A program made the position numbers and the translations under genes. A DNA stretch of 64,000 nt from Gallionellaceae bacterium (GTDB lineage Bacteria > Pseudomonadota > Gammaproteobacteria > Burkholderiales > Gallionellaceae): assembly GCA_027448945.1 (NCBI GenBank), contig DAIDMQ010000039.1, positions 1 to 64,000 of the forward strand, written 5' to 3'. Below the pieces are notes generated by a model. It saw only the letters and a list, made by a program, of their open reading frames with translations. It did not search any database and was not told the origin of the DNA. Of the stretch, positions 3,116 through 34,614 are shown in pieces (position 1 is the first letter of the stretch; each line of letters opens with the position of its first letter).

Positions 3116-4381
3116 TTAAAGATGTGGACCCCACACCGGTTCCCGTGCATCGCCGCTTTGTGTGTACATACGCTGCTTAACACGCCCATCGCTTGAAACA
3201 CTTGCCAATATACCACGACCATGCGATTCACTAGCAAATAGGATAAGCTTTCCATTAGGTGCGTAACTGGGTTTTTTCTCCCAGCCGCCGTCACTCAAGA
3301 TCTGCATCTGTCCCGTTTGGAAATCTTGTGTCGAAATGTAAAACTGTCCGTTCGCCCTGTGGGTGAATACGAAGCTCTTACCGTCGGGGTTGTAGCGAGG
3401 CGAATAATTACTCCCCTCCCCAAACGTCTGACGCTGCTCTAAGCCACCAGCCAAGGGCAGACGATAGATCTGCGCACTACCACCGCGATCGGAAGTAAAC
3501 AGCAGATATTGACCATCCGGTGAAAAATTGGGCTCAGTATCAATCGCGCCACTGAAGGTGATACGGCGTATGTCACTGCCATCGGGTCTGATCAAATATA
3601 TCTGCGAACTGCCATCGCGAGTGAGCACGATCGCCAGTTGCTTGCCATCCGGCGACCATGCAGGCGCACTGTTACTACCGCGAAAGTCAGCGATCAACTT
3701 GCGCTGATTGCTAAACACGGATTGCACAAACACGGCCGCGTGACCAGTCTCAAAGCTCACATAGGCAATCTGTTTGCCATCAGCAGACCATGATGGCGAC
3801 ATGATGGGTTCATTTTGATCCAACACCGTCTGCTCGTTATAGCCGTCGCTATCGGCAATAATCAATTTAAACCGCTCACCGTTTCGGTTCACATAGACGA
3901 TGCGCGTACTGAACACTCCCTGATCACCAGTCAATTTCTCGTAAATGAGATCAGAGATACGATGGCCTATGGCACGTAACTGACTTTCTTTGGCTGAGAC
4001 CACTTCACCGGCCAGCGGCGTTTTCTTGAGCACATCATAGAGACGGAATTTAACTGTGATTTTGCCATCGGCATGTCCAACACTACCGATCGCCAGCGCA
4101 TCTGCGCCCAAAGCCTGCCAATCTGAAAAACTCACCTCACCCGGTTCATGCGGCGTCTTGCCCACTGTATCTACCATGCGAAAAAGCCCGCTGCGCTGCA
4201 GATCACCGACGACGACTGCATTGATCGCTGCGGACAATATTTCATCCCCACCCAGCGGCACGATCGCCACTGGAATCTGGTGTTCACCTGCACCAACAAT
4301 CTCTATGGTCAGCTCTGCCCTGGCACTCAAGGCTGTGAGTAACAGCGACAATACAGCTACATTTTTCAAGACTCTCAACAT
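3116..4381 (-). CDS. tolB: Tol-Pal periplasmic protein TolB
   Basis: TolB is a periplasmic beta-propeller that binds Pal and TolA. The 421-residue precursor has a signal peptide ending around A22 (TALSARA), an N-terminal alpha/beta domain, and then repeated propeller blades. The blades carry the motif SWSADGKQIAY / AWSPDGKQLAI / NFSPDGQYLLF at about 70-residue scale positions. Length and blade pattern match the family. It sits 12 bp after tolA. Confidence 0.97.
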   Translation of the reverse strand: MLRVLKNVAVLSLLLTALSARAELTIEIVGAGEHQIPVAIVPLGGDEILSAAINAVVVGDLQRSGLFRMVDTVGKTPHEPGEVSFSDWQALGADALAIGSVGHADGKITVKFRLYDVLKKTPLAGEVVSAKESQLRAIGHRISDLIYEKLTGDQGVFSTRIVYVNRNGERFKLIIADSDGYNEQTVLDQNEPIMSPSWSADGKQIAYVSFETGHAAVFVQSVFSNQRKLIADFRGSNSAPAWSPDGKQLAIVLTRDGSSQIYLIRPDGSDIRRITFSGAIDTEPNFSPDGQYLLFTSDRGGSAQIYRLPLAGGLEQRQTFGEGSNYSPRYNPDGKSFVFTHRANGQFYISTQDFQTGQMQILSDGGWEKKPSYAPNGKLILFASESHGRGILASVSSDGRVKQRMYTQSGDAREPVWGPHL

Positions 4382-6645: not shown

Positions 6646-7693
6646 CGAGCAAGTCTCCGATCACAGGTTTGTTCGATACCTGCAAACCAAAATGTTGATA
6701 GGCATGTGCGGTCGCCATGCGGCCGCGCGGCGTGCGTTGCAGATAGCCCTGCTGAATCAGATACGGCTCCAGCACATCTTCTATCGTGTCGCGCTCTTCG
6801 CCTATCGCGGCGGCGAGATTATCCACGCCCACCGGCCCGCCGAGAAATTTCTCTATGACTGTCAGGAGCAATTTCCTGTCCATCACATCCAAGCCTTGCG
6901 AGTCCACATCCAACATAGTTAAAGCGGCATCAGCCACGGCGCGTGTCGCATCGCCTCCCGCCTTGACATCCGAGTAGTCGCGCACCCGGCGTAACAGGCG
7001 ATTGGCGATACGCGGTGTGCCGCGCGAACGTTTGGCGATTTCCAGCGCGCCGTCGTGCGCCAAACTCATTTCCAATAATCCCGACGAGCGCATCACGATG
7101 CGCTGCAACTCTTCGGGGGTATAAAACTCCAACCGCGCCACGATGCCGAAACGGTCGCGCAACGGGTTGGTCAACATACCCGCGCGCGTGGTCGCACCCA
7201 CCAGCGTGAACGGTGGCAAATCCAGCTTCACCGAACGCGCCGCCGGCCCCTCGCCTATCATGATGTCGATCTGATAATCCTCCAGCGCGGGATACAGAAT
7301 CTCTTCCACCACCGGCGACAAGCGATGGATCTCGTCGATGAACAACACATCATGGGGTTCGAGATTGGTCAACAACGCCGCCAAGTCGCCCGCGCGTTCC
7401 AGCACAGGACCTGATGTATGGCGCAGATTCACGCCCATCTCGCGTGCGATGATCTGTGCCAGGGTGGTCTTACCCAAACCCGGCGGGCCGAACAGCAGCA
7501 CATGGTCGAGCGGCTCTTTTCTTTGCTTCGCTGCCTGAATAAAAATTTCCAACTGGCCGCGTATCTTCTCTTGCCCGACATACTCATCGAGCTGCTTGGG
7601 ACGCAGCGCGCGCTCCAGCGCCTCTTCCTGTTTTGAAGCGACAGCGGGCGTGGTCAAGCGCGGTTCAGTGGTGAGATTGTCGCTGTGTATCAT
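6638..7693 (-). CDS. ruvB: Holliday junction branch migration ATPase RuvB
   Basis: RuvB is the hexameric AAA+ motor that drives branch migration with RuvA. The 351-residue protein has Walker A GPPGLGKT at 69-76, Walker B with DEIHRL at 120-125, sensor 1 region GATTRAGML, and a C-terminal winged-helix domain ending near a PRGRMAT motif. It overlaps ruvA by 4 bp (ATGA) and ybgC by 8 bp. Confidence 0.98.
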
Positions 7694-8275: not shown

Positions 8276-9214
8276 TTATCCCAGTAACAAACCTGTACTC
8301 AGCAGTGCACCATGCACCAACATCGCGGCTATCGTCATCTTGATGCCCTTTGCCAAATCCTGTGGCTGCCCCGCATGACGGAACAATTCTCGCGCGGCAT
8401 TCAAACTGAGCGGCATAGACAGCAGACCCAGCAGAGCCCACATAGTCAAATAGCCAGCCCACACCGCGAACAACAACCAGCCATACGCCAAGCCGGCCAG
8501 CAGCACATAACCCCAGCGCGCTTGCTCCACTTCCAGTCGCGCAACCCAGTGCATCTTTCCCGCAGCCATATCGGCAGTACGATCGGGGAACTGATTGATG
8601 TACAGCAAATTGGTTGCCAACAAGGCATACGGCAAGCCCGCGATATAGGGCGCGAGCGAGCCCTCTTTGCGCAACACCATATCCGCGCCGACGACAATCG
8701 CCAGAAAACCCGTGGTGATGCACACCTCTCCCACACCGCGACTATTCAACTTAAACGGCGGTGCTGAATACGCCCATCCGACAAACAAACCCGCCAAACC
8801 GACGTACAATAACTGCGGCGAGGAGTGGGTCATCAACCACAGTCCCGCGACCGCCACACACGCCACCAAGGCAAAGCCGAAATTGCGCGTCTGCGCCAAA
8901 CTCAACACGCCGTTCTGTATAAAGCGACTACCGCCCGTGAACGGGAAAATGCGCTCGCTATTTTGCGCATCCGTGCCATTCAACGCGTCATAGTAATCGT
9001 TCAGCACATTCGCCCCCGCGTGCGCCAACAACGCGAACCACACCGTCACCAACACCAGCAAGCCATCCAGCCCGATACCCTCGTAATGCGCGATGGCAAA
9101 ACCGATCAGGCAAGCCATCAAACTGGCCGAAAGAAATGCAGGACGTGTCGCCGCAAAATAACGGGCGACAGGGTTGGCGAATGATGCAACGCTCGGCTCC
9201 ATCGGCTGCGTCAT
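8276..9214 (-). CDS. UbiA/MenA-family prenyltransferase
   Basis: A membrane prenyltransferase of 312 residues, most like 1,4-dihydroxy-2-naphthoate prenyltransferase (MenA). It shows a first aspartate-rich motif NVLNDYYD (N72, D73, D76) and a second around [10 protein letters not shown], plus about eight hydrophobic membrane segments. The start used here overlaps the ruvC stop as ATGA; the frame is open further upstream inside ruvC, but those codons are unlikely to be used. It lies between ruvC and ruvA. No other menaquinone gene is present, so the acceptor substrate cannot be fixed; another quinone or a tetraprenyl lipid is possible. Confidence 0.8.
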
Positions 9215-23782: not shown

Positions 23783-26434
23783 TCAGACGCGCTGCGCCAA
23801 AAGTTTGCGTATCTCCGGCACGCAAGAACCGCATCCCGTACCCGCTTGCAGACACGCTCCCACCGCTTCGACTGAGTTCAGACCTTGCGCTTTGATAGCG
23901 TGCAGTATGGTTTTTTCGCCCACATTAAAACAGGCACACACATTGCGTCCGGTATCAGCGGCAGCACCCTTAGGTGGACGCGCAGACAGCAAACCGGCTA
24001 GGTCTACCGTTGCCAATTGCGGCAACGCAAACAGGCTACTGAGCCATGCGCGTTCAGGTAAACGCTGGTCGGGTGCGATGAAGAATGCTGCTTCCAATCG
24101 TCCATTTTTCAAACATGCGGTGCGATAACGACCCATTGCCGCATCGCGATACTCAATCCAGTCGCCCGTTAATCCCGATGTGCGCTGCGCCCAATCGCGC
24201 CAGACTTCGGGCAACGCGTCACCCGCAATCTCGTGTCGCCAATAAGCTGCACCTTGCGTGGCGGCGCAATAGCTCGCATCGGCAATATCCAGTCTTGCAC
24301 GGCTCAACACAAAGCCCTGCCATGCGGGACGATAAGGTTCGATTTTTACGGGCGTGTGCTTGGACTCAGGCTGACCCGAAATTGGATCGGTGATGGGTGC
24401 GACCAGTGCATCAACACGTGCCGATTTAGCAAAGTGATCGTTCCAATGCATGGGTACGAACACCGAACCCGCGCGTTGCTCGTCGCTGATTTGCACCCGC
24501 GCCAGCATCGTCCCGTGTCGGCTGGTCAAACGCGCCAAGCCGCCGTCTTGCAGTTGCTTAGTTTGCGCATCGCTCGCATGAATCTGCACAGATGGCTCGA
24601 CCACATGCGCATTCAAGCGCGGCACTTTTCCGGTGCGCGTCATAGTGTGCCATTGATCGCGCATACGACCCGTGTTCAGTACCAGCGGATACTCGGCATC
24701 AACTGGGACCGCAGGCAATTTCGGTGCGACGGCAACCATGCGGGCTTTGCCGCTAGGCGTGAAAAACTTGCCATCGCCAAACATGCGCTGCGTGCCTTTT
24801 TGCGCGCTGCGAGTGACCGGCCATTGCACTGGCTGCATCTTGTCGTATTCCGCATCGCTCAATGCCTGCAACGCACTGATGTCGAAGGCGCGCGCGCCTG
24901 CATTTTCATACCCCGAAAGTCGCGCATGTTCGCGGAATATCTGTGCCGTTTTGGTGTAGGGAAACGCCTCGGCGTAACCCATGCGCTGCGCAACTTGCGT
25001 GATGATCCACCAGTCGGGACGCGCCTCACCCGCGCTCGCCAAAAACGAACGTTGCCGCGAGATGCACCGTTCCGAGTTGGTCACCGTGCCGTCTTTTTCA
25101 CCCCATCCCGATGCGGGTAGCAGAATATCGGCGCACACCGTGGTGTCGGTTTGCTGCACGCAATCAGATACCACCACCAGTTCGCAATCTAGCAATGCGG
25201 CGCGCACTTTATCAGCATCTGGCAAGCTGACCACGGGGTTCGTCCCCATGATCCACACCGCCTTGATTTTTTTGTCCGCGATGGCTTGGAACATCTCCAC
25301 CGCCTTGAGTCCAGCAGCTTGCGCGATACACGGGGCATCCCAAAAGCGCGCCACCAAGTCGATACTTGCTGCATCGGAAAAATCCATGTGCGCTGCTAGT
25401 TGATTGGCCAGTCCGCCAACCTCGCGTCCACCCATCGCATTGGGTTGCCCGGTCACCGAAAATGGCCCCATCGCTGGCTTGCCGATGCGCCCCGTGGCGA
25501 GGTGCACATTGATAATCGCGTTCGCCTTATCCACCCCGCTGGACGATTGATTGATACCTTGCGAGAAGATGGTCACGGTGCATTCTGTGCGCGCAAACAG
25601 GCGAAAAAATTCGCTGACCTGCGTCTCGGAAACACCGCAAACTTGCGCAACTTTAGGGATGGAGCTCACGCTACGCGCCGCCTCAAATGCGGCGGCAAAC
25701 CCTTCCACATGTGCCTCAACATAAGCCAGGTCGAGCGCGTCTTCACGACGCAAATGATGCAGCAGTCCGTTGAATAAAAAAGCATCTGCACCGGGGGCTA
25801 AGGCGAGATGCATATCCGCGATGTCGCAGGTTGCCGTGCGGCGCGGATCAATCACCACCACTTGCATTTCAGGGCGGGATTTTTTTGCGGCAAGCAGACG
25901 TTGATACAGCACCGGATGCGCCCAAGCGTAATTCGATCCAACAATAACAACCAGATCAGCCTGCTCCATATCTTCATAGCAAACCGGCACAACATCCGCA
26001 CCGAAAGCGCGCTTGTGTGCAGCCACCGCCGTGGACATGCACAGCCGCGAATTGGTGTCGATGTTCGCGCTGCCGACAAAGCCCTTCATCAGCTTATTGG
26101 CTACGTAGTAATCCTCGGTGAGGATCTGCCCCGATACATAAAATGCCACCGCGTCTGGTCCATGCTGATCTATGACTTTTTGAAAGCCCGTTGCGACTTG
26201 CGCCAGAGCGTCATCCCAACTTGCACGCTGCCCCTGCACAATAGGATGCAGCAAACGCCCCTGATGCTCCAAAGTCTCGCCCAGAGCCGCACCCTTAGAG
26301 CACAAGCGCCCAAAATTCGCCGGATGCTGCTTATCACCAAACAGCTTCACCTGCGCGTCCGCGATGTTCACCGTCACCCCGCAACCCACGCCGCAATAAG
26401 GGCAAGTCGTTTGCGTAATCTTTGCGTCAGACAT
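23783..26434 (-). CDS. nasA: Assimilatory nitrate reductase catalytic subunit NasA
   Basis: NasA reduces nitrate to nitrite in the cytoplasm using a bis-MGD molybdenum cofactor. The 883-residue protein has an N-terminal [4Fe-4S] site (C11, C14, C18, C45), the molybdopterin oxidoreductase core, and the dinucleotide-binding domain (LVLNTGRMRDQWHTMTRTG). A C-terminal BFD-like [2Fe-2S] domain has VCACFNVGE and a CGSC motif. This is the Klebsiella-type layout. No separate NADH-dependent partner (NasC/NasB) is encoded nearby, so the electron donor is unknown. It lies 2 bp after nirD and is followed by moaA. Confidence 0.95.
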   Translation of the reverse strand: MSDAKITQTTCPYCGVGCGVTVNIADAQVKLFGDKQHPANFGRLCSKGAALGETLEHQGRLLHPIVQGQRASWDDALAQVATGFQKVIDQHGPDAVAFYVSGQILTEDYYVANKLMKGFVGSANIDTNSRLCMSTAVAAHKRAFGADVVPVCYEDMEQADLVVIVGSNYAWAHPVLYQRLLAAKKSRPEMQVVVIDPRRTATCDIADMHLALAPGADAFLFNGLLHHLRREDALDLAYVEAHVEGFAAAFEAARSVSSIPKVAQVCGVSETQVSEFFRLFARTECTVTIFSQGINQSSSGVDKANAIINVHLATGRIGKPAMGPFSVTGQPNAMGGREVGGLANQLAAHMDFSDAASIDLVARFWDAPCIAQAAGLKAVEMFQAIADKKIKAVWIMGTNPVVSLPDADKVRAALLDCELVVVSDCVQQTDTTVCADILLPASGWGEKDGTVTNSERCISRQRSFLASAGEARPDWWIITQVAQRMGYAEAFPYTKTAQIFREHARLSGYENAGARAFDISALQALSDAEYDKMQPVQWPVTRSAQKGTQRMFGDGKFFTPSGKARMVAVAPKLPAVPVDAEYPLVLNTGRMRDQWHTMTRTGKVPRLNAHVVEPSVQIHASDAQTKQLQDGGLARLTSRHGTMLARVQISDEQRAGSVFVPMHWNDHFAKSARVDALVAPITDPISGQPESKHTPVKIEPYRPAWQGFVLSRARLDIADASYCAATQGAAYWRHEIAGDALPEVWRDWAQRTSGLTGDWIEYRDAAMGRYRTACLKNGRLEAAFFIAPDQRLPERAWLSSLFALPQLATVDLAGLLSARPPKGAAADTGRNVCACFNVGEKTILHAIKAQGLNSVEAVGACLQAGTGCGSCVPEIRKLLAQRV

Positions 26435-26436
26435 GC

Positions 26437-26748
26437 CTAAGTCTTTGGGTTGATGAACACGAGGCCGCTCTCAACCTTGATGTCATGGCGATGCGCGCAA
26501 CCCACATCGGGCGCGACCGCCGCCCCCGTCTCCAATTCGATCATCCAACTATGCAGCGGACACGTGACACGCTTGCCATGCACGATGCCTTGTGCCAGCG
26601 GCCCGCCTTTATGCGGACAGCGATTGTCCAAGGCGAAAACCTCATCGCCCACACTGCGAAACAGCGCGATTTCGCCTGTCGAGGTATTCACGATGCGCGA
26701 GCCTTGACGCGGAATATCATCCAGCTTGCCGACTTGTATCCAGTTCAT
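26437..26748 (-). CDS. nirD: Nitrite reductase small subunit NirD
   Basis: NirD is the small subunit of NADH-dependent assimilatory nitrite reductase. The 103-residue protein has a Rieske fold and keeps the complete [2Fe-2S] ligand set C44-x-H46 and C63-x2-H66 (CPHKGG and CPLHSW). Many NirD proteins have lost these ligands, so this one may hold a real cluster. It lies 12 bp after nirB and 2 bp before nasA. Confidence 0.94.
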   Translation of the reverse strand: MNWIQVGKLDDIPRQGSRIVNTSTGEIALFRSVGDEVFALDNRCPHKGGPLAQGIVHGKRVTCPLHSWMIELETGAAVAPDVGCAHRHDIKVESGLVFINPKT

Positions 26749-26760
26749 TTTTTGTTTCCC

Positions 26761-29205
26761 TTATTCGATGGTCGCCAGTGCTGCGTATTCGTGCGCATCT
26801 TTGCCTTCGGCGCGCTCCTTCCACGGGTCATCCTGTGAATAGCGTTGCGATTCAAGGAAGCGCGCATACAACTCTGCACGCCCCACTGCGTCTTCAACAA
26901 CGCGTTGTTTCACATAGGCCAGCCCGACACGCTCTATCCACGGTGCAGTTCTATCCAGGTAGTGCGCCTCTTCGCGATACACCTGCATGAACGCGCCGCA
27001 ATATTCCATCACTTCAGCCTCGGTTGCTACCTTGCACAGGAAATCCGTGACGCGCACTTTGATACCGCCATTGCCGCCGACATGAATCTCGTAACCAGAA
27101 TCCACGCACACCACGCCGAAATCTTTGATGGTGGCTTCGGCGCAATTACGCGGACAACCCGACACCGCGATTTTGAATTTGTGCGGCGTCCAAGAACCCC
27201 AGGTCATCTTCTCGACCTTGATGCCCAAACCGGTGGAATCCTGCGTACCGAAGCGACACCACTCCGAACCCACGCAGGTCTTCACCGTGCGCAATGATTT
27301 CCCGTAAGCATGTCCCGAGACAAAACCTGCTGCGACCATATCGCCCCACATCTTGGGCAGGTTCTCTTTCGTCACGCCCAACAGGTCGATGCGTTGACCG
27401 CCGGTAATTTTCACCGTTGGCACTTGATACTTGTCCGCGATGTCGGCAATAGCGCGCAGCTCCGCAGGCGAAGTCACGCCGCCCCAGATGCGCGGTATCA
27501 CGGAATACGTGCCGTCTTTTTGGATGTTGGCGTGTACCCGTTCGTTGATAAAACGCGAGCGGCTATCGTCCTCATACTCACCCGGCCATGCCGAGAGCAA
27601 ATAAAAATTCAGTGCAGGACGACAAGAATGGCAACCGTCCGGTGTCTTCCAATGCAATGCTTGCATCAGTTGCGGCAGTGACTTTATGTTCTGCTGCGTG
27701 ATAGCCGCACGCACTTCTTCATGTGTATCTTCGGTGCAGCTACACATCGCTTTTTTGCTCGGCTTGGTTGAATAATCTCCGCCCAAAGTGTTGGCCAAAA
27801 TGGATTCCACTAGTCCGGTACATGAGCCGCACGAACTGGACGCTTTGGTATGGGCACGCACCTCTTCCAATGTGAATAATTTTTTCTCGACGATAGCATT
27901 GACAATCGTGCCCTTGCATACGCCGTTGCAGCCGCAGACCTCCGCCTTATCGTCCATGTTCGCCACGCTCGCCGCACCGCCATGACCTGCGTCACCCAAA
28001 TGCACTTGCCCGAACAAAATATGTTCGCGCATCTCGCTGACATCCGTACCATCGCGCAGCATTTGAAAATACCAAGGGCCGTCTATAGTGTCGCCATACA
28101 TCACCGCACCGCGCAATTTGTTGTCGCGCAGTACCAGTTTTTTATACACGCCGCGCGCCGAATCTTGCAGCAATAACTCTTCATCTTCCGGACCTGCGTT
28201 GAAGTCGCCCGCCGAAAATAAATCAATGCCGGTTACCTTAAGCTTGGTCGAGACGGAAGAACCTTCGTAACGCATACGGCCATATTCGGCGAGATGATTG
28301 GCGGCCACTTTAGCCTGCTCAAACAAAGGTGCGACCAAGCCGTAAGTCTGACCTCGGTGCTGCACACACTCACCCACCGAATAGATTTTTGGATCGTAAG
28401 TCTGCATCGTGTCATTCACCACGATGCCTCGTTCGCAATGGATGCCGGCAGATTTCGCCAGTGCAATATTGGGACGGATGCCCGCTGCCATCACCACCAG
28501 ATCGGCCTCGATTTCTTCACCGTCTTTGAAGCGTAACCCGCGCACTTTATCCATGCCAAAAATGGATTCGGTCTGGCGCGACAAATAAAATTTCAGTCCG
28601 CGCTTTTCCAGCGCGTCCTTCAATAAGCCGCCGCCAACTTTGTCCAACTGACGTTCCATAGGCCAATCACACAAATGCACCACCGCCACTTCCATGCCTT
28701 GTAAAGTCAATCCATTCGCGGCTTCCAGACCAAGCAGACCGCCGCCGATAACGACCGCGCGCTTGCTAACCTTGGCAGCAGCCTGCATTTTTTCCACATC
28801 GTCGATGCTGCGATAGGCGATGACACCAGAAAGATTAACGCCGGGAATCGGCAGGATGATGGGATTAGAACCCGTCGCAATTAGCAATCTATCGTATGGT
28901 ACAGCCAATCCATCATCGGTCTCCACAACGCAACGCTGACGGTCTATCTTGGTCACCCACTTTCCTGCATGCAGTTTGATGTTGTTGTCTTTGTACCAAC
29001 TCCAATCGTTCAGCACCGTGTCCTGAAATGCCATCTCGCCGGACAGCACCGGTGACAACAAGATGCGGTTGTAATTGGGTTGCAACTCAGCGCCGAACAC
29101 CGTGATGTCATATTCGTCGGGCGACATCTTGAGCAACTCTTCCAGCGTGCGTATGCCGGCCATGCCGTTGCCGATGACCACCAAACGCGTTTTATTTTTT
29201 TCCAT
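26761..29205 (-). CDS. nirB: Nitrite reductase large subunit NirB
   Basis: NirB reduces nitrite to ammonium with electrons from NAD(P)H through FAD, a [4Fe-4S] cluster and siroheme. The 814-residue protein has an N-terminal FAD motif (VVIGNGMAGIRTLEELL), an NAD-binding motif (VVIGGGLLGLEAANGL), and a BFD-like [2Fe-2S] region (CGCNGVCKG). The C-terminal siroheme half has CVGSEWC and SGCPRNCAEA as cluster and siroheme ligands. Siroheme precursor would come from cobA at 33859. Confidence 0.97.
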   Translation of the reverse strand: MEKNKTRLVVIGNGMAGIRTLEELLKMSPDEYDITVFGAELQPNYNRILLSPVLSGEMAFQDTVLNDWSWYKDNNIKLHAGKWVTKIDRQRCVVETDDGLAVPYDRLLIATGSNPIILPIPGVNLSGVIAYRSIDDVEKMQAAAKVSKRAVVIGGGLLGLEAANGLTLQGMEVAVVHLCDWPMERQLDKVGGGLLKDALEKRGLKFYLSRQTESIFGMDKVRGLRFKDGEEIEADLVVMAAGIRPNIALAKSAGIHCERGIVVNDTMQTYDPKIYSVGECVQHRGQTYGLVAPLFEQAKVAANHLAEYGRMRYEGSSVSTKLKVTGIDLFSAGDFNAGPEDEELLLQDSARGVYKKLVLRDNKLRGAVMYGDTIDGPWYFQMLRDGTDVSEMREHILFGQVHLGDAGHGGAASVANMDDKAEVCGCNGVCKGTIVNAIVEKKLFTLEEVRAHTKASSSCGSCTGLVESILANTLGGDYSTKPSKKAMCSCTEDTHEEVRAAITQQNIKSLPQLMQALHWKTPDGCHSCRPALNFYLLSAWPGEYEDDSRSRFINERVHANIQKDGTYSVIPRIWGGVTSPAELRAIADIADKYQVPTVKITGGQRIDLLGVTKENLPKMWGDMVAAGFVSGHAYGKSLRTVKTCVGSEWCRFGTQDSTGLGIKVEKMTWGSWTPHKFKIAVSGCPRNCAEATIKDFGVVCVDSGYEIHVGGNGGIKVRVTDFLCKVATEAEVMEYCGAFMQVYREEAHYLDRTAPWIERVGLAYVKQRVVEDAVGRAELYARFLESQRYSQDDPWKERAEGKDAHEYAALATIE

Positions 29206-29226: not shown

Positions 29227-29532
29227 TTATGTTCGTGCAAACAGTGACTTGCTCGAAAAAATTCCAACTTCATCACCCGCATTCAAGGTGTCAGAACTTT
29301 GCGCTACCTTGCGATTGAGGGTGCAAACCACATGCTGACGATCCAGCTCATACGCCCACACGTTGCCGCGTCTGCGCAAACCATCCAGCAATTTTTCCAG
29401 CGTATTCATCTCGTCTGAGATTTCGATGCGCTCTGACGTCATCATCAAAAACTCACTGGCGCGCCCGAAGTACATAACTTCTACTTGGTTGGTGCGAGCC
29501 GCAGCCAATAAATTTCTAAACAATTTTTTCAT
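29227..29532 (-). CDS. MoaD/ThiS-like small protein without Gly-Gly tail
   Basis: A 101-residue protein whose middle and end look like the ubiquitin-fold sulfur carrier family: VEVMYFGRASEFLMMTSERIE, a central LEKLLDGLRRRG helix, VVCTLNRKVAQSSDTLNAGDEVGIF near the end. The C-terminus is FSSKSLFART, so the diglycine needed for sulfur transfer is missing. A basic N-terminal extension (MKKLFRNLLAAARTNQ) is also unusual. It lies between nrtD and nirB with tight spacing, which points to a role in nitrate assimilation rather than standard molybdopterin synthesis; the true moaD is at 21855. Function unknown. Confidence 0.75.
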   Translation of the reverse strand: MKKLFRNLLAAARTNQVEVMYFGRASEFLMMTSERIEISDEMNTLEKLLDGLRRRGNVWAYELDRQHVVCTLNRKVAQSSDTLNAGDEVGIFSSKSLFART

Positions 29533-29536
29533 CGCC

Positions 29537-30328
29537 TCACGCCGCTTTTTTAGCTTGTTTTTGATATAAAAATTCCAGCACCGCACCGCGCAGCCGGTGG
29601 TAATTCACATCGTTCGCCAGTGCCAGACGATTGCGAGGTTTAGGCAAATCAACGGTGAGGATTTCGCCTATGGTAGCGGCGGGTCCGTTGGTCATCATCA
29701 CGATCCGATCCGACAACAACACCGCTTCGTCCACATCATGCGTGACCATCACCACCGTGCTGTTGGTGGCAGCGACAATCTTCATCAGCTCGTCTTGCAA
29801 ATGCGCACGCGTCAATGCATCCAGTGCGCCGAATGGCTCATCCATTAACAATACTTTGGGCTGCATGGATAAAGCGCGAGCGATACCAACACGCTGCTTC
29901 ATCCCGCCCGAAATCTCATGCGGATATTTATGTTCAGCATGAGTCAAATCCACCAAAGCCAATGCTGCACGGGTGCGTTGGTGTAGTTGCGCCTTGTTTT
30001 CCGTCGCACCAAACACGCGTTCCACCGCGAGATGGACATTCTCAAAACAGGTCAGCCAAGGCAACAGCGAATGATTCTGGAACACCACGCCGCGATCAGG
30101 TCCTGGCCCTGCGATTTCTCGATCCGCACACAACATCACCCCCTCTGTCGGCATCAGCAATCCGGCAATCAAATTCAGCAGCGTGGATTTTCCGCAACCC
30201 GAGTGACCGATCAAGGTGATGAATTCACCGCGTTCGATTTTCAGATCAATATCCTTGAGTGCGACGAATGTGCCTTGCTTGGTCGAAAATGACATTTGCA
30301 CGTTCTCGATTTGTACATATTTTTTCAT
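29537..30328 (-). CDS. nrtD: Nitrate ABC transporter ATPase
   Basis: The ATPase of a nitrate/nitrite importer, 263 residues. Walker A is GHSGCGKST at 41-49, the signature is ISGGMKQRVGIARAL, and Walker B is VLLMDEPFGALDA. Sequence features match the NrtD/NasD class rather than the fused NrtC form, since no solute-binding domain follows. It sits 11 bp after nrtB and 4 bp before the MoaD-like gene. Confidence 0.9.
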   Translation of the reverse strand: MKKYVQIENVQMSFSTKQGTFVALKDIDLKIERGEFITLIGHSGCGKSTLLNLIAGLLMPTEGVMLCADREIAGPGPDRGVVFQNHSLLPWLTCFENVHLAVERVFGATENKAQLHQRTRAALALVDLTHAEHKYPHEISGGMKQRVGIARALSMQPKVLLMDEPFGALDALTRAHLQDELMKIVAATNSTVVMVTHDVDEAVLLSDRIVMMTNGPAATIGEILTVDLPKPRNRLALANDVNYHRLRGAVLEFLYQKQAKKAA

Positions 30329-30339
30329 GTTATTTCCGC

Positions 30340-31113
30340 TCAGTAACTGAAACGTTTAGCGATTTTGACTAGCAAAGTTTCCAACAACAATCCGACGATG
30401 CCCACAATGAAAATTGCGATAATGATGTGCTCGACATTGAGGTTGTTCCATTCGTCCCACACCCAAAAACCAATGCCCACGCCGCCTGTCAGCATTTCCG
30501 CTGCAACGATTACCAGCCATGCCGTACCGATGGCTAACCGTATACCGGTCAGCATGTAGGGCAAGGTCGCAGGAAACAGAATTTTGGTGAAAATTTTCCA
30601 CTCCGATAAATTGAGTACACGAGCGACGTTCAGATAATCCTGTGGCAACTGACGCACGCCCATCGCGGTATTGATAATCATCGGCCAGATGCTGGAGATG
30701 AAAATCACCCAGATAGCGGCAGGATTCGCGGCCTTGAGCACCAACAAACCTATCGGTAACCAAGCCAAGGGCGACACCGGTCTAAGCATATTCACGATGG
30801 GCGCACTCATTTTGTTGAGAAAATCGAAACGCCCAACCATGAACCCCAGCGGAATACCCACCAACGCGGCAAAACCAAAACCGACACCCACGCGTTGCAG
30901 CGAGGCCAAAATATTCCAGCCTATACCCTGATCGTTAGGCCCCTTCTGATAAAAAGGGTCGCTGAATAAAGCAACCGCCGAGTCCCATGTTTTCATGGGC
31001 CCCGGCAGGTTTTCGCTGGTTTGCGCCAGCACCGCCCAGAACAAGATGAACAGGGCGATCCCCAGCAACGGCGGCACTAGATTCTCAGCAAGATATTTTT
31101 TAAACTTCATCAT
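30340..31113 (-). CDS. nrtB: Nitrate ABC transporter permease
   Basis: The membrane channel of the nitrate importer, 257 residues with about six hydrophobic helices. The permease coupling motif lies in LNLSEWKIFTKILFPATLPYMLTGIRLAIG at about residues 165-195. TM segments include PLLGIALFILFWAVLA at the start. It overlaps the nrtA stop by 4 bp and precedes the ATPase gene. Family members move nitrate, nitrite, cyanate or bicarbonate; nitrate is assigned from context. Confidence 0.92.
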   Translation of the reverse strand: MMKFKKYLAENLVPPLLGIALFILFWAVLAQTSENLPGPMKTWDSAVALFSDPFYQKGPNDQGIGWNILASLQRVGVGFGFAALVGIPLGFMVGRFDFLNKMSAPIVNMLRPVSPLAWLPIGLLVLKAANPAAIWVIFISSIWPMIINTAMGVRQLPQDYLNVARVLNLSEWKIFTKILFPATLPYMLTGIRLAIGTAWLVIVAAEMLTGGVGIGFWVWDEWNNLNVEHIIIAIFIVGIVGLLLETLLVKIAKRFSY

Positions 31114-32417
31114 GCTTTTACCTTAAAACTGGCGGCATACTTCTTGGGATCCTTACCATCCCACACCGTGCCATCCATCAACTTGGAAGTGCGCATGACA
31201 TTCTTAGGAATAGACACTTTGACTTGAGAGGCGGCCTGTTTGTACAACTCGATCTGGTTGATTTTCTTCGCCACTGCTAGATAGTCTGGATCTGTCTTAA
31301 GCAAACCCCAACGTTTATGCTGCGTCAAGAACCACATGCCGTCAGATAAGTACGGGAAGTTCACCGCACCGTCGCTGCAAAATTTCATGTAGTTAGGGTC
31401 GTTCCACTTCTTGCCCAAGCCGTCTTCGTACTTGCCTTCGAAACGTTGATCGATGACATCGACCGGACAATTCACATAAGCTTTGTCGGCGATAATCTCT
31501 GCCACTTTATGGCGATTCGCCATATCGTCGATGTACTTGGACGCATCCAGAATTGCCATGATTAATGCACGTGCGGTGTTGGGATATTTCTGCGCAAACT
31601 CGGCGGTGCTGCCCAATACCTTTTCGGGATGATCTTTCCAAATGTCTTGAGTTGTCGTCGCGGTGAATCCGATTTTGTCGTAGATGGCACGGTTGTTCCA
31701 AGGCTCGCCCACACAGAAGCCATCCATATTGCCCACGCGCATATTGGCGACCATTTGTGGCGGCGGAACGGTAATAGTCTTCACATCGCTCAATGGATTG
31801 ATGTCGTTAGCAGCCAGCCAGTAATACAGCCACATAGCGTGCGTGCCCGTTGGGAAAGTCTGGGCAAAGGTGTAATCACGCTTCTCACTATCGACTAGTT
31901 TCTTCAATGCCGCACCGGTGGTCACACCTTTATCTTTGAGCTGATTCGACAGCGTGATGGCCTGACCGTTGTTGCTCAGCGTCATCAGCACCGACATGTC
32001 TTTTTGCTGCCCGCCTATGCCCAGTTGTACGCCATAAATCAGACCATACAAAACATGCGACGCATGCAGCTCACCATTGACCAATTTGTCCCGCACCGCA
32101 GCCCATGAGGCCTCTTTGGAAGGAATGATTTTGATACCGTATTTCTCATCAAACTTCATCACTGACGCGATCACCACCGACGCGCAATCGGTCAAAGGAA
32201 TAAAGCCGACTTTCACCTCTTTCAATTCGGGCGCGTCCGAACCCGCCGCCCAAGCCGAAGCGCGAGTCCCCATAGGCACCATAGACATGATGCCCGCCGT
32301 GCCCAACAACACGCCTGCCTGTTTCATAAAATCCCTCCTACTGTTTTGTTCCGGTGTGCGTGTCTCAACAATGACGTTTGATTCAGTCGTGACGCTGTCA
32401 GTTTTAGAATGTTCCAC
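31110..32417 (-). CDS. nrtA: Nitrate-binding periplasmic protein NrtA (Tat signal)
   Basis: The solute-binding component of the nitrate importer. The 435-residue precursor has a long N-terminus with a twin-arginine motif SRRDFMK (R27, R28) and a hydrophobic stretch, so it is probably exported folded. The NrtA/CmpA family block VKVGFIPLTDCASVVIAS follows. Start codon is GTG, with AAGGAG 8 bases upstream. Unlike NasS, the regulatory relative, it has an export signal and sits with a permease and ATPase, so transport is the likely role. Confidence 0.92.
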   Translation of the reverse strand: MEHSKTDSVTTESNVIVETRTPEQNSRRDFMKQAGVLLGTAGIMSMVPMGTRASAWAAGSDAPELKEVKVGFIPLTDCASVVIASVMKFDEKYGIKIIPSKEASWAAVRDKLVNGELHASHVLYGLIYGVQLGIGGQQKDMSVLMTLSNNGQAITLSNQLKDKGVTTGAALKKLVDSEKRDYTFAQTFPTGTHAMWLYYWLAANDINPLSDVKTITVPPPQMVANMRVGNMDGFCVGEPWNNRAIYDKIGFTATTTQDIWKDHPEKVLGSTAEFAQKYPNTARALIMAILDASKYIDDMANRHKVAEIIADKAYVNCPVDVIDQRFEGKYEDGLGKKWNDPNYMKFCSDGAVNFPYLSDGMWFLTQHKRWGLLKTDPDYLAVAKKINQIELYKQAASQVKVSIPKNVMRTSKLMDGTVWDGKDPKKYAASFKVKA

Positions 32418-32532: not shown

Positions 32533-32904
32533 CTATGACGCGGAAAAACTATAACCACGTGTAGGATGAGTCTTAATCCAACCAGCCATCGCGAAAGGTT
32601 CTAATGCTCGACGCAAACGGCGTATATGAACATCAATGGTTCGCTCTCCCACAACGACGTGCTTATTCCATACCTGCGCTAACAACGTGCTGCGGGCATG
32701 AACACGTTCGGGCTGGTTCATTAAAAATTTCAACAAACGAAACTCAATCGGGCGCAACAAAAGTGGCATCCCGTTAGCCGTTATGCGGCCAGTATCCTCA
32801 GACAAAATTAACCCTTCAACGACGATAACGGCATCGCTTATGTATCTAGATTTATAGCTCTGAGCGTAGGTAAAACTAGCGATGTTCAGCGAGATCACAA
32901 TCAT
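32533..32904 (-). CDS. Stand-alone PhoB/OmpR-type winged-helix DNA-binding protein
   Basis: A 123-residue protein consisting of the C-terminal DNA-binding domain of OmpR/PhoB response regulators (about 30-122), without a receiver domain. The wing and recognition helix are clear: PIEFRLLKFLMNQPERVHARSTLLAQVW, then GERTIDVHIRRLRRALEP and a final TRGYSFS. The first 28 residues do not resemble a receiver. It is the first gene after the ANTAR-type leader at 32928-33012 and precedes nrtA by 115 bp. It is probably a dedicated regulator of the nitrate block; its target is not visible. An alternative GTG start lies two codons downstream. Confidence 0.8.
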   Translation of the reverse strand: MIVISLNIASFTYAQSYKSRYISDAVIVVEGLILSEDTGRITANGMPLLLRPIEFRLLKFLMNQPERVHARSTLLAQVWNKHVVVGERTIDVHIRRLRRALEPFAMAGWIKTHPTRGYSFSAS

Positions 32905-32927: not shown

Positions 32928-32970
32928 TAAAAAAAGGTGTCCGCCGCGTGATACGCGGTGGGACACCTTT
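32928..32970 (-). terminator. Conditional terminator in the nitrate operon leader
   Basis: On the minus strand AAAGGTGTCC pairs with GGACACCTTT, with an inner CCGCGT/ACGCGG stem, followed by a run of seven T. It is a strong Rho-independent terminator. Its 5' arm includes bases of the second hexaloop hairpin (32961-32974), so the two structures are mutually exclusive. Confidence 0.85.
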
Positions 32971-33009
32971 GTCCTTTACTTATTAGCCTACAAATCGCCG
33001 TTGATTCGT
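32961..33009 (-). promoter_or_regulatory. ANTAR-type two-hexaloop antiterminator RNA
   Basis: Two hairpins on the minus strand. P1 (32990-33009) has a 7-bp stem ACGAATC/GATTTGT and hexaloop AACGGC. P2 (32961-32974) has stem GGAC/GTCC and hexaloop AAAGGT. Both loops carry A at position 1 and G at position 4, the known ANTAR recognition bases. P2 overlaps the following terminator. ANTAR proteins bind such pairs and prevent termination; the nasT gene lies directly upstream. Confidence 0.82.
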
Positions 33010-33012
33010 GCT

Positions 33013-33037
33013 GCATAGCTATTAGCAATAGCCATGC
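33013..33037. repeat. 25-bp imperfect palindrome over the promoter
   Basis: GCATAGCTATT then AGC then AATAGCCATGC: 11-bp arms with one mismatch and a 3-base centre. It covers the sigma-54 promoter spacer, the -12 element and the likely start site. It may be an operator for an additional regulator, possibly the winged-helix protein encoded just downstream; that link is inference. Confidence 0.6.
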
Positions 33038-33176: not shown

Positions 33177-33752
33177 TCATACACTCAACTCTTTCGCCAA
33201 AATAATCGCCTCGGCAATTTCTACAATGCGTTTGCCTTTGCTCATCGCCATGCTGCGCATACGCTTGTACGCATCGGGTTCGCTGTAGCCGTGATCTGTC
33301 ATCAATATCGCCTTGGCTTGATCGACTAACTTGCGTTCGACCAGCTGCCCTTTCGCTTCTTTCAACTCGTCGCGCAAACGTTTGTGTTCAGCGAATCTGG
33401 CTGCGGCTACTTCTATAATGCCGCTCAAATCTTCGCCTTGAACCGTGTGCGCGACATATGCACTAACTCCGGCGCGCATCGCCTGCTGAATGCTGTGCTG
33501 ATCATTTCGCGCACCCAGCACCACCACAGGCTTTTCCAGTGTCGTGGACATCAGGCTAATCTGCTCCAGCGTGTCACGCCCCGGCGCGTTGGCATCAACA
33601 ATGATGACGTCGGCAGAGGCTGCTTGTATCGAACACTCGTCTACCTGCTCCCACTCCAACACGCCGACCACATCGAAGTCAGCCAATTCCAAACTGGCTT
33701 TCAACCATGCCGCACGATCTCTTACATCATCTATGATGAGAATTTTTTTCAA
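33177..33752 (-). CDS. nasT: ANTAR-domain antitermination regulator NasT
   Basis: A 191-residue regulator with a receiver-like N-terminal domain (about 1-120; acidic D8, D9 and the phospho-site position in VIIVDANAPG), a short coiled coil, and an ANTAR RNA-binding domain (about 135-188). The ANTAR domain contains LVERKLVDQAKAILM and YKRMRSMAMSKGKRIVEIAEAI. NasT-type proteins bind two-hexaloop leaders and permit read-through into nitrate genes. Such a leader lies just downstream at 32961-33009. The usual nitrate-sensing partner NasS is not encoded in the window. Confidence 0.93.
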   Translation of the reverse strand: MKKILIIDDVRDRAAWLKASLELADFDVVGVLEWEQVDECSIQAASADVIIVDANAPGRDTLEQISLMSTTLEKPVVVLGARNDQHSIQQAMRAGVSAYVAHTVQGEDLSGIIEVAAARFAEHKRLRDELKEAKGQLVERKLVDQAKAILMTDHGYSEPDAYKRMRSMAMSKGKRIVEIAEAIILAKELSV

Positions 33753-33833
33753 CTGGACTCCTCGTATTTTTCAGTCCTACTTACGCTGCACACACACAAA
33801 ATCGCACAACCACGGTGCGCGGCACTGAAAATA

Positions 33834-33858: not shown

Positions 33859-34614
33859 CTACGCAAAGACGGCTGATCTCTCTTTCCATCCAGGAAAATT
33901 CTGTTGCGCTTGAGCGCGTAACACTTCGCCCAAAACAATCAGCGCGGGCACACCCACATCCCCAGCCGCATCAGGCAGTTGAGCCAGCGTAGTGTGAGAT
34001 TTTTTCATATTGGGTAATGAGGCATTACTGATAATCGCCACCGGCGTATCGCCAGACAAGCCACGCTGCATCAAGGCTGCGGCAATCTCAGTTGATTGAT
34101 GAGAAGCCATGTATAACACCGCCGTGTCGGCGACCAACACGCTTTGCGCCCAATCACTCACGGCTTCATTTTCACCTACGCGCGGCGTGACGAATACGAC
34201 ATTGCGACTGAGACCGCGCTGAGTAAGTGACACACCCAACTCAGCCGCTGCCGCCAATGCCGACGTGATACCAGGGACGATTTCGTATGCGATACCTGCT
34301 GCTTGCAAGGCGGCGATCTCCTCTTGTGCGCGACCGAATATCATCGGGTCGCCACCCTTCAGACGCACGACTAACTCATAATGTTGAGCCGCCTCAACCA
34401 GACTGCGATTGATAAAGCGTTGATCCGTAGAAACTTCTTTGCAGCGCTTGCCCACCGCGATCATCCGCGCCGCTGGATGTGTCATCGCCAATAATTCAGG
34501 CTGCACCAACGCGTCATACAAAACGACATCTGCCTGCTCTAATAATCTCGCACCGCGCAAGGTAATCAAGTCGGCCGCTCCGGGGCCCGCACCAATCAAA
34601 TACACTTTACCCAT
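33859..34614 (-). CDS. cobA: Uroporphyrinogen-III C-methyltransferase
   Basis: This SAM-dependent enzyme makes precorrin-2, the branch point to siroheme and cobalamin. The 251-residue protein has the N-terminal VYLIGAGPGAADLITLRGARLL motif, RLKGGDPMIFGR, and PGITSALAAAAELGVSLTQRG, all typical. It is the single-domain form without the dehydrogenase/ferrochelatase of CysG, so another enzyme must finish siroheme. Siroheme is needed by NirB in the same block. Confidence 0.94.
   Translation of the reverse strand: MGKVYLIGAGPGAADLITLRGARLLEQADVVLYDALVQPELLAMTHPAARMIAVGKRCKEVSTDQRFINRSLVEAAQHYELVVRLKGGDPMIFGRAQEEIAALQAAGIAYEIVPGITSALAAAAELGVSLTQRGLSRNVVFVTPRVGENEAVSDWAQSVLVADTAVLYMASHQSTEIAAALMQRGLSGDTPVAIISNASLPNMKKSHTTLAQLPDAAGDVGVPALIVLGEVLRAQAQQNFPGWKERSAVFA

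Follow-up and report, generated by a model that had tools for sequence, protein, structure and literature searches.

The nitrate assimilation operon of this Gallionellaceae bacterium opens with an RNA leader that, judged from its own sequence and from that of its relatives, is a genuine member of the known ANTAR dual-hexaloop kind of antitermination element. The leader very probably works as an attenuation switch, and by analogy with the family the NasT protein encoded upstream would bind it and suppress termination. How nitrate reaches NasT is a separate question, since the inputs known from related circuits are not found here; the circuit is a NasS-NasT variant without NasS, and the exported nitrate-binding protein NrtA, acting before its export, is the best candidate sensor.

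The leader and its operon

The window, by which we mean the whole stretch of 64,000 nucleotides analysed, belongs to a genome (G000) of 2.45 Mb that is 99.98% complete. On its minus strand the genes run in the order cobA, nasT, leader, winged-helix gene, nrtA, nrtB, nrtC, MoaD-like gene, nirB, nirD and NasA-type reductase, the leader lying at 32928..33012 (Table 1). The initial annotation had placed the leader at the head of a nitrate operon with nasT directly upstream, and both statements hold: the leader precedes nrtABC-nirBD-nasA, and 168 nt separate the end of nasT from P1. The two minus-strand hexaloops that it had reported, AACGGC and AAAGGT with A1 and G4, are borne out by reading the sequence; both loops have in addition a C-G closing pair, and a linker of 16 nt joins the two hairpins. 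The terminator does overlap the second hairpin as claimed, its 5' arm consisting of the P2 loop and the P2 3' arm, so that formation of P2 excludes the terminator. The P2 stem is as short as had been noted (4 bp), with the nuance that A1 and U6 of its loop are pairable here and that ViennaRNA draws P2 as 5 bp and a tetraloop; in 21 of 31 measured leaders the P2 loop reads AAAGGC, in which an A1-U6 pair is impossible.

Table 1. Coordinates of the leader, its promoter and the surrounding genes in the window (hairpin loops in brackets)
Feature	Position	Strand	Basis and remarks
cobA/SUMT, upstream of nasT	33859..34614	minus	profile match
nasT, receiver-like domain and ANTAR	33177..33752	minus	sole ANTAR gene found in the genome
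Putative sigma54 -24/-12 promoter TGGCATGGCTATTGCT	33039-33024	minus	consensus scan; predicted +1 near 33013
P1 hairpin CGAAUC[AACGGC]GAUUUG	33008-32991	minus	read from sequence, folding; 4 of 6 pairs with two-sided changes (30 leaders)
P2 hairpin (4 bp) GGAC[AAAGGU]GUCC	32974-32961	minus	overlaps terminator; read from sequence, alignment
Intrinsic terminator, arms GGUGUCC / GGACACC with AAA/UUU, seven U	32970-32929	minus	folding and scan; 6 of 13 pairs with two-sided changes
PhoB-type winged-helix protein without receiver, 123 aa, first gene after leader	32533..32904	minus	domain match
nrtA, nitrate-binding protein, Tat-type signal (RRDFMK); proposed to serve also as sensor for NasT	31110..32417	minus	domain match, N-terminus, tree
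nrtB, permease	30340..31113	minus	TIGR01183
nrtC, ATPase	29537..30328	minus	TIGR01184
MoaD/ThiS-like protein	29227..29586	minus	domain match
nirB	26761..29205	minus	profile match
nirD	26437..26748	minus	profile match
nasA-type assimilatory nitrate reductase	23783..26434	minus	NCBIfam scores below cut-offs

None of 200 shuffles of the 181-nt region folds as well as the native sequence (z -3.0). A strict scan for two C-G-closed A1/G4 hexaloops, the second overlapping a U-tailed terminator, returns exactly one place in the window, and the same arrangement is absent from all 150 random 64-kb sequences drawn from a first-order Markov model of the window. The scan speaks against reading the leader as no more than the terminator of nasT, with hexaloops that arose by chance. 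Such a view draws on the fact that the leader does lie behind nasT; set against it are the empty random windows, hexaloop positions and P1 stems conserved with covariation, and the presence of such leaders before narK and nirB as well in one relative (L051), and we regard it as very improbable.

Covariation among related leaders

Conserved A1/G4 and compensatory stem changes, which the initial annotation had proposed to seek in the leaders of related genomes, are both present in an alignment of 30 distinct leaders out of 32 (left out are L098, with a long linker insert, and L118, whose P1 is unresolved). In P1 and P2 together 99.7% of 298 cells are paired and 5 pairs have two-sided changes; such changes number 18, against 3.1 in shuffles, and none of 500 shuffles is as high. 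In the terminator version 98.9% of 565 cells are paired, 10 pairs have two-sided changes, and the changes number 30 against 6.2 in shuffles. Every measure falls when the pairing partners are shifted. All scored P2 cells pair (2 cells are gapped), the outer pair changing from G-C to A-U in 2 of the 30 leaders. This outer pair and the terminator share one column, and columns 54-67-98 covary as a triple: L075 has the A-U pair with a matching A in the terminator, and L112 has it with a U-G terminator partner. Both leaders keep both partners, as is characteristic of a strand for which two structures compete. When loops are sought by A1/G4 only, P1 is found in 31 of 32 leaders (L118 being the exception); P2 is C-G-closed in 27 of 31, the script having picked a G-C-closed alternative in the other 4.

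We built a covariance model from the family leaders, this leader included. The search of the genome with such a model, proposed in the initial annotation, finds only this locus, at 73 bits from a model partly made from this leader; a second match of 27.6 bits is the reverse-strand shadow of the same locus. Among 44 other family loci the model finds 11 further strong sites (>69 bits; doubled loci and copies of model leaders excluded), and at E <=0.001 it finds 40 sites on 39 of 80 wider-order loci (one reverse-strand shadow excluded). The same leader type stands behind nasT in relatives, and the named NasT relatives are mostly Gallionella, other Gallionellaceae or Nitrosomonadales.

Two loci depart from the common layout. 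The leader at L098:8513-8633, which shares its genome with L050, has 49 nt between P1 and P2 where about 16 are usual; a hairpin-like repeat is inserted in this linker, providing a natural experiment on the spacing limit that has been reported for EutV. The L051 genome has three such leaders, at 3954-4044, 7264-7351 and 8882-8970 (-), before nirB, narK and a signal-less NrtA relative.

Two Rfam families carry the same hexaloops

In an Rfam scan at permissive thresholds the leader matches narK RNA (RF03032) at 39.6 bits (E 2.7e-6), under the gathering cut-off of 43.2, and P11 (RF00625) at 35.8 bits, under the cut-off of 70. Both families contain the same two hexaloops, a likeness overlooked in the initial annotation. 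The narK RNA consensus shares with the leader a GGCaC..UUGCU box, the P1 loop AACGGC and GAC[AAAGAC]GUC, but the Rfam model pairs P1 only, leaving P2 unpaired and the terminator outside. The P11 consensus shares a sigma54-like box, a loop AACGau and GGAC[AAAGGC]GUCC leading into a long hairpin, but it has an extra helix, and Rfam lists it as the gene of a Pseudomonas sRNA rather than as a leader. We read narK RNA, from these consensus sequences, as what would be the promoter-proximal half of this switch. Matches to it (E <=0.001) occur in 41 of 399 genomes of the order, 3 of the 41 passing the cut-off; 37 of the 41 have NasT, against 137 of 399 genomes overall, and the other four (G296, G301, G384 and G480) all have a NIT-ANTAR protein. 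No mention of 'narK RNA' or 'narK motif' was found in a limited literature collection, and to our knowledge the family has no assigned function.

A putative sigma54 promoter at the foot of P1

The initial annotation had also overlooked a putative sigma54 promoter, whose match to the consensus includes the GG/GC doublets and the conserved flanks and whose predicted start falls at the foot of P1. It is the only match in the window, where 0.21 are expected by chance and 21 of 100 shuffles have one. Because the box had served to choose the leaders for the alignment, it was tested on leaders found by a box-free model (62 nt around the model start; hits at E <=0.001; shadows, doubles and model leaders excluded, L145 being dropped as a copy of a model leader). 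It lies near 23 of 28 model-found leaders of the family and near 20 of 40 in the wider order, against 3.5% of random pieces from the same loci. Most leaders of the family thus have the box, whereas in the wider-order set half lack it where it would be expected. Given this promoter, the operon probably has two inputs. The nasF operon of Klebsiella oxytoca likewise has a sigma54 promoter. A published study (PMC12316311) predicts that in Pseudomonadota nitrate ABC genes, and ANTAR genes as well, are controlled by sigma54.

A strong hairpin at about 33038-33012 is probably outside the RNA, since it shares sequence with the promoter and sits at, or upstream of, the point where transcription is predicted to begin. 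An NtrC-like palindrome, GCAC-N7-GTGC, at 33804-33818 upstream of nasT was set aside as unremarkable, the window having 5 matches against 2.3 expected.

NasT without a known nitrate input

NasT is the only ANTAR protein found in the genome, and it has the receiver-like and ANTAR domains of the NasT half of a NasS-NasT pair. The other half, NasS, a cytoplasmic NrtA-like protein without a signal, was not found in this genome: its only two NMT1_2 matches (E <=0.001) both bear signals as judged by eye, the first being the operon NrtA with its Tat-type signal and the second a distant protein whose N-terminus resembles a signal peptide. Nor was a NIT domain, as in the one-component NasR, found in this genome, NasT included. 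With neither known nitrate input found, the sensor must be something else. The initial annotation had NasT allow read-through when nitrate is present; the part concerning antitermination of the NasT type stands, on the covariation, the single ANTAR gene upstream and the same leader type behind nasT of relatives, whereas its nitrate input finds no counterpart in NasS or NIT.

Phosphorylation was considered as the input and rejected. Asp53 is invariant in 13 of 13 aligned NasT, yet at what we take to be the canonical Thr/Ser position nine sequences have Gly, two have Ser and two have Arg, while the presumed Lys position is His in all 13. The domain looks like a pseudo-receiver, and with the motif broken in this way a partner protein is likelier than phosphorylation. 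A limited literature search found no title or abstract on NasT without NasS.

NasT may, alternatively, have no sensor here, being always active or set by its own amount, with the operon answering nitrogen shortage through sigma54 only. In Paracoccus loss of NasS is reported to give constitutive nas expression (PMC3795266), and a few genomes seem to be without both NasS and clade-A NrtA. If the terminator were permanently overridden, one would expect it to degenerate, but the 30 aligned leaders retain it with compensatory changes, and a sensor-free NasT leaves unexplained why a signal-less NrtA-like protein is kept after a transporter swap; we consider the proposal unlikely, if still a serious one.

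The sensor could also be another, unrecognised cytoplasmic protein, for instance the winged-helix protein of the operon or an unrelated binding protein elsewhere. The winged-helix gene does sit between the leader and nrtA, and a sensor of this sort would be invisible to sequence searches. In G012 the corresponding place is taken by a copy of 76% identity, and relatives of 51% and 48% identity lie in the nitrate clusters of L041 and L050; among the loci compared, however, only the window and G012 have it between nasT and nrtA, and a Pfam search of the protein shows no ligand domain. PADLOC gave no match for it either. An unrecognised sensor of either sort seems to us quite improbable.

NrtA-like proteins in genomes with NasT

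Within the family a NasT match (E 4e-32 or better) is present in 38 of 120 genomes, in 32 at an identity of at least 74%. Among the strong matches of these 38 genomes, 24 have exported clade-A NrtA only, 6 a signal-less copy only, 5 a signal-less copy together with exported NrtA2, and 1 an NrtA2-like protein; 2 fell outside the assessment.

Across the order NasT is present in 137 of 399 genomes. Eighty of these were surveyed, taken mostly in listing order with later additions, some for high NasT identity; matches at E 1e-60 or stronger were considered, G073 was left out, and export was called by a twin-arginine/hydrophobicity rule and by eye. Among strong matches, 55 of the 80 show clade-A NrtA in exported form with no signal-less copy beside it; 13 of them also have another exported type. 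The NrtA-like proteins found in these 55 genomes are all exported and include, in each genome, one of the NasS-related clade. A signal-less copy only is present in 11 (G330 doubtful), exported and signal-less copies together in 2 (G248 and G508), other exported types only in 8, and exported NrtA2 with a distant signal-less copy behind nasT in 1 (G144), while 3 gave nothing usable. Reached through named loci, 22 more genomes, at least 3 of which repeat genomes of the order set, comprise 8 with exported, 7 with signal-less and 3 with NrtA2-like proteins and 4 with none or fragments; the coordinates of G135, G136 and G139 equal those of G173, G372 and G485, and these are probably the same genomes. 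In G133, G134 and G140 nasT is present with no NrtA-like match, and in G124 and G125 it is present with NrtA2 only, all five being possibly incomplete assemblies; many surveyed genomes are MAGs and may be incomplete. The N-termini of 16 second matches were read, and all look exported. In L204 (G330) the NrtA N-terminus keeps a hydrophobic stretch and has HH at the twin-arginine site, perhaps a decayed Tat signal.

Loss of the export signal

A tree was made of 141 rows, of which 30 are signal-less; fragments L141, L142, L146, L147 and L149 were excluded from it, as were identical rows. At least 7 changes between exported and signal-less are needed on it, by a quick method that left several long branches and carries a warning of long branches joined. 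Signal-less groups are nested inside supported exported clades, and a single clade holds both forms intermingled. Downstream of the NrtA-like gene of G069 lies narK, not nrtBC, and the N-terminus of its product reads ..EKTGRQELAKESGADSDAAGVTGEEPMGTRSSAWIAGSDAPEL.. against ..RRDFMKQTGAILGAAGIMSMVPMGTRSAAWAAGSDAPEL.. in an exported relative, a mutated Tat signal in register; G137 has a second decayed Tat signal in register. Where enough downstream sequence is available (62 of 141 rows), nrtB follows 43 of 44 exported copies and none of 18 signal-less ones, and five independent pairs all go in the same direction (p 0.06, from 5 pairs only). The absence of nrtB with signal-less copies, together with G069 and G137, suggests that when the pump is replaced the binding protein is often kept, staying in the cytoplasm. 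One might hold instead that the proteins without a signal are simply NasS, with an origin of their own and no bearing on exported NrtA, and the deepest signal-less rows of the tree are indeed long and loosely placed; the nesting of several signal-less groups in supported exported clades and the two mutated Tat signals in register speak against a separate origin, which we think rather improbable.

A clade-A-like match was found in 152 of 399 order genomes, 126 of the 152 having NasT (9 of the 152 were dropped as incomplete or unlisted). Such matches start late in the alignment in 25 cases, of which 24 genomes were read as signal-less and G494 as exported. All 24 genomes with a signal-less copy in the order sample have NasT. 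Exported clade-A copies were counted in 96 genomes with NasT (some read, the rest called by alignment start, the doubtful G330 included) and in 25 without, all read; the association of signal loss with NasT is statistically weak (Fisher p 0.014, kinship ignored). Signal loss seems to have arisen several times, and in these sequences it is seen only in NasT genomes.

Clade-A NrtA without NasT occurs in 26 genomes, 19 of which have another ANTAR protein, by open frame a long one (>420 aa) in 12 and only short ones in 7. Ten ANTAR proteins were scanned, nine from these 26 genomes and one from G384: all 8 long ones are NIT-ANTAR proteins, NasR-like with a built-in sensor, and the short ones (G165 and G346) have no NIT domain, one of them showing a weak receiver match. 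Given these short proteins, some genomes counted as NasT-less may carry a diverged NasT. In NIT-ANTAR genomes the exported NrtA is also of the Tat type, with no signal loss seen; a second role of NrtA is unneeded with NIT-ANTAR, and Tat export is not special to the NasT circuit.

From the alignment to NrtA 2g29 we take W105, Q152, T192 and H193 to be nitrate-pocket residues. All 90 exported clade-A copies retain the four residues; of the 29 signal-less ones 29, 29, 28 and 29, respectively, do so. K261 was dropped as a pocket residue, being variable. Residue 261 is Lys in 56 of 90 exported and Pro in 23 of 29 signal-less clade-A copies, a difference that is possibly a convergent change after loss of transport.

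A proposed circuit

Nitrogen shortage would set off transcription at the foot of P1 through the sigma54 promoter. Unless something intervened, the terminator would form and RNA polymerase would stop ahead of the operon; free NasT would bind the P1 and P2 hexaloops and hold P2 against the terminator, allowing read-through into nrtABC-nirBD-nasA. Nitrogen status acting through sigma54 would thus start the RNA, and NasT would decide its completion. For the nitrate input, gene sharing would be the most economical explanation. Tat substrates fold in the cytoplasm, and NrtA, being such a substrate, can meet NasT before export. The NrtA precursor, a product of the operon itself, would hold NasT until nitrate binds, and nitrate binding by unexported NrtA would release it. 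With each exported NrtA molecule the cytoplasm would lose inhibitor, and gene expression would thereby be tied to assembly of the transporter; FlgM, whose export plays this part for flagella, is a parallel. Once the pump had been replaced, only the cytoplasmic role would be left, the signal would decay and the protein would become NasS.

That unexported NrtA is the nitrate sensor of NasT is a tentative proposal drawn from the evolution of these proteins, and we would put it somewhat short of an even chance. Both forms occur together in G248 and G508, some NasT genomes have only NrtA2, other types or none, and Tat export also occurs in NIT-ANTAR genomes, all of which counts against it.

Regulatory use of an NrtA-like domain has a parallel in cyanobacteria, where the C-terminal domain of NrtC has a regulatory role. 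PDB molecule names call this NrtA-like part the C-terminal regulatory domain; unlike the proposed sensor, it is fused to a transporter ATPase and is not the partner of an RNA-binding antiterminator. The closest precedent is NasS-NasT of Paracoccus denitrificans, with a NasT-type ANTAR protein and a leader before the nas genes (PMC3795266, PMC5424462). There NasS, an NrtA relative without a signal, holds NasT, and nitrate releases it (PMC3795266). NasS of Paracoccus is predicted to be cytoplasmic, without a signal sequence, and is encoded with nasT, whereas here none was found and the nearest relative is an exported NrtA. The leader itself resembles that of nasF of Klebsiella oxytoca, controlled by NasR, in its two hexaloops, A1/G4 preference, C-G closing pair and place before a nitrate assimilation operon, and A1, G4 and the C-G closing pair are the features selected by NasR in vitro (PMC7496416). 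NasR, however, carries its own nitrate-sensing NIT domain, whereas NasT here is receiver-like and has none. The eut leaders bound by Enterococcus EutV are similar in that a dual hexaloop overlaps the terminator and A1 and G4 are conserved, G4 being obligatory (PMC8934654); EutV, however, is a response regulator that has a kinase and is phosphorylated, whereas NasT here is without the receiver Lys and mostly without Thr/Ser.

These results suggest a function, that of an antitermination switch, for the narK RNA family and probably also for P11, and they add a covariation-backed ANTAR switch for Gallionellaceae, a family of iron oxidisers. The 55 of 80 order NasT genomes without a signal-less NasS-like protein raise the question of how NasT learns of nitrate in such bacteria, and the comparison suggests a simple, testable answer together with a path by which a subunit of a transporter could have evolved into a dedicated sensor. 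If this is true, the nitrate-binding protein of an ABC importer would moonlight, before its export, as the cytoplasmic sensor of an RNA-binding antiterminator, and NasS would be the remnant of such a protein after loss of the signal once another transporter had taken over, seemingly several times.
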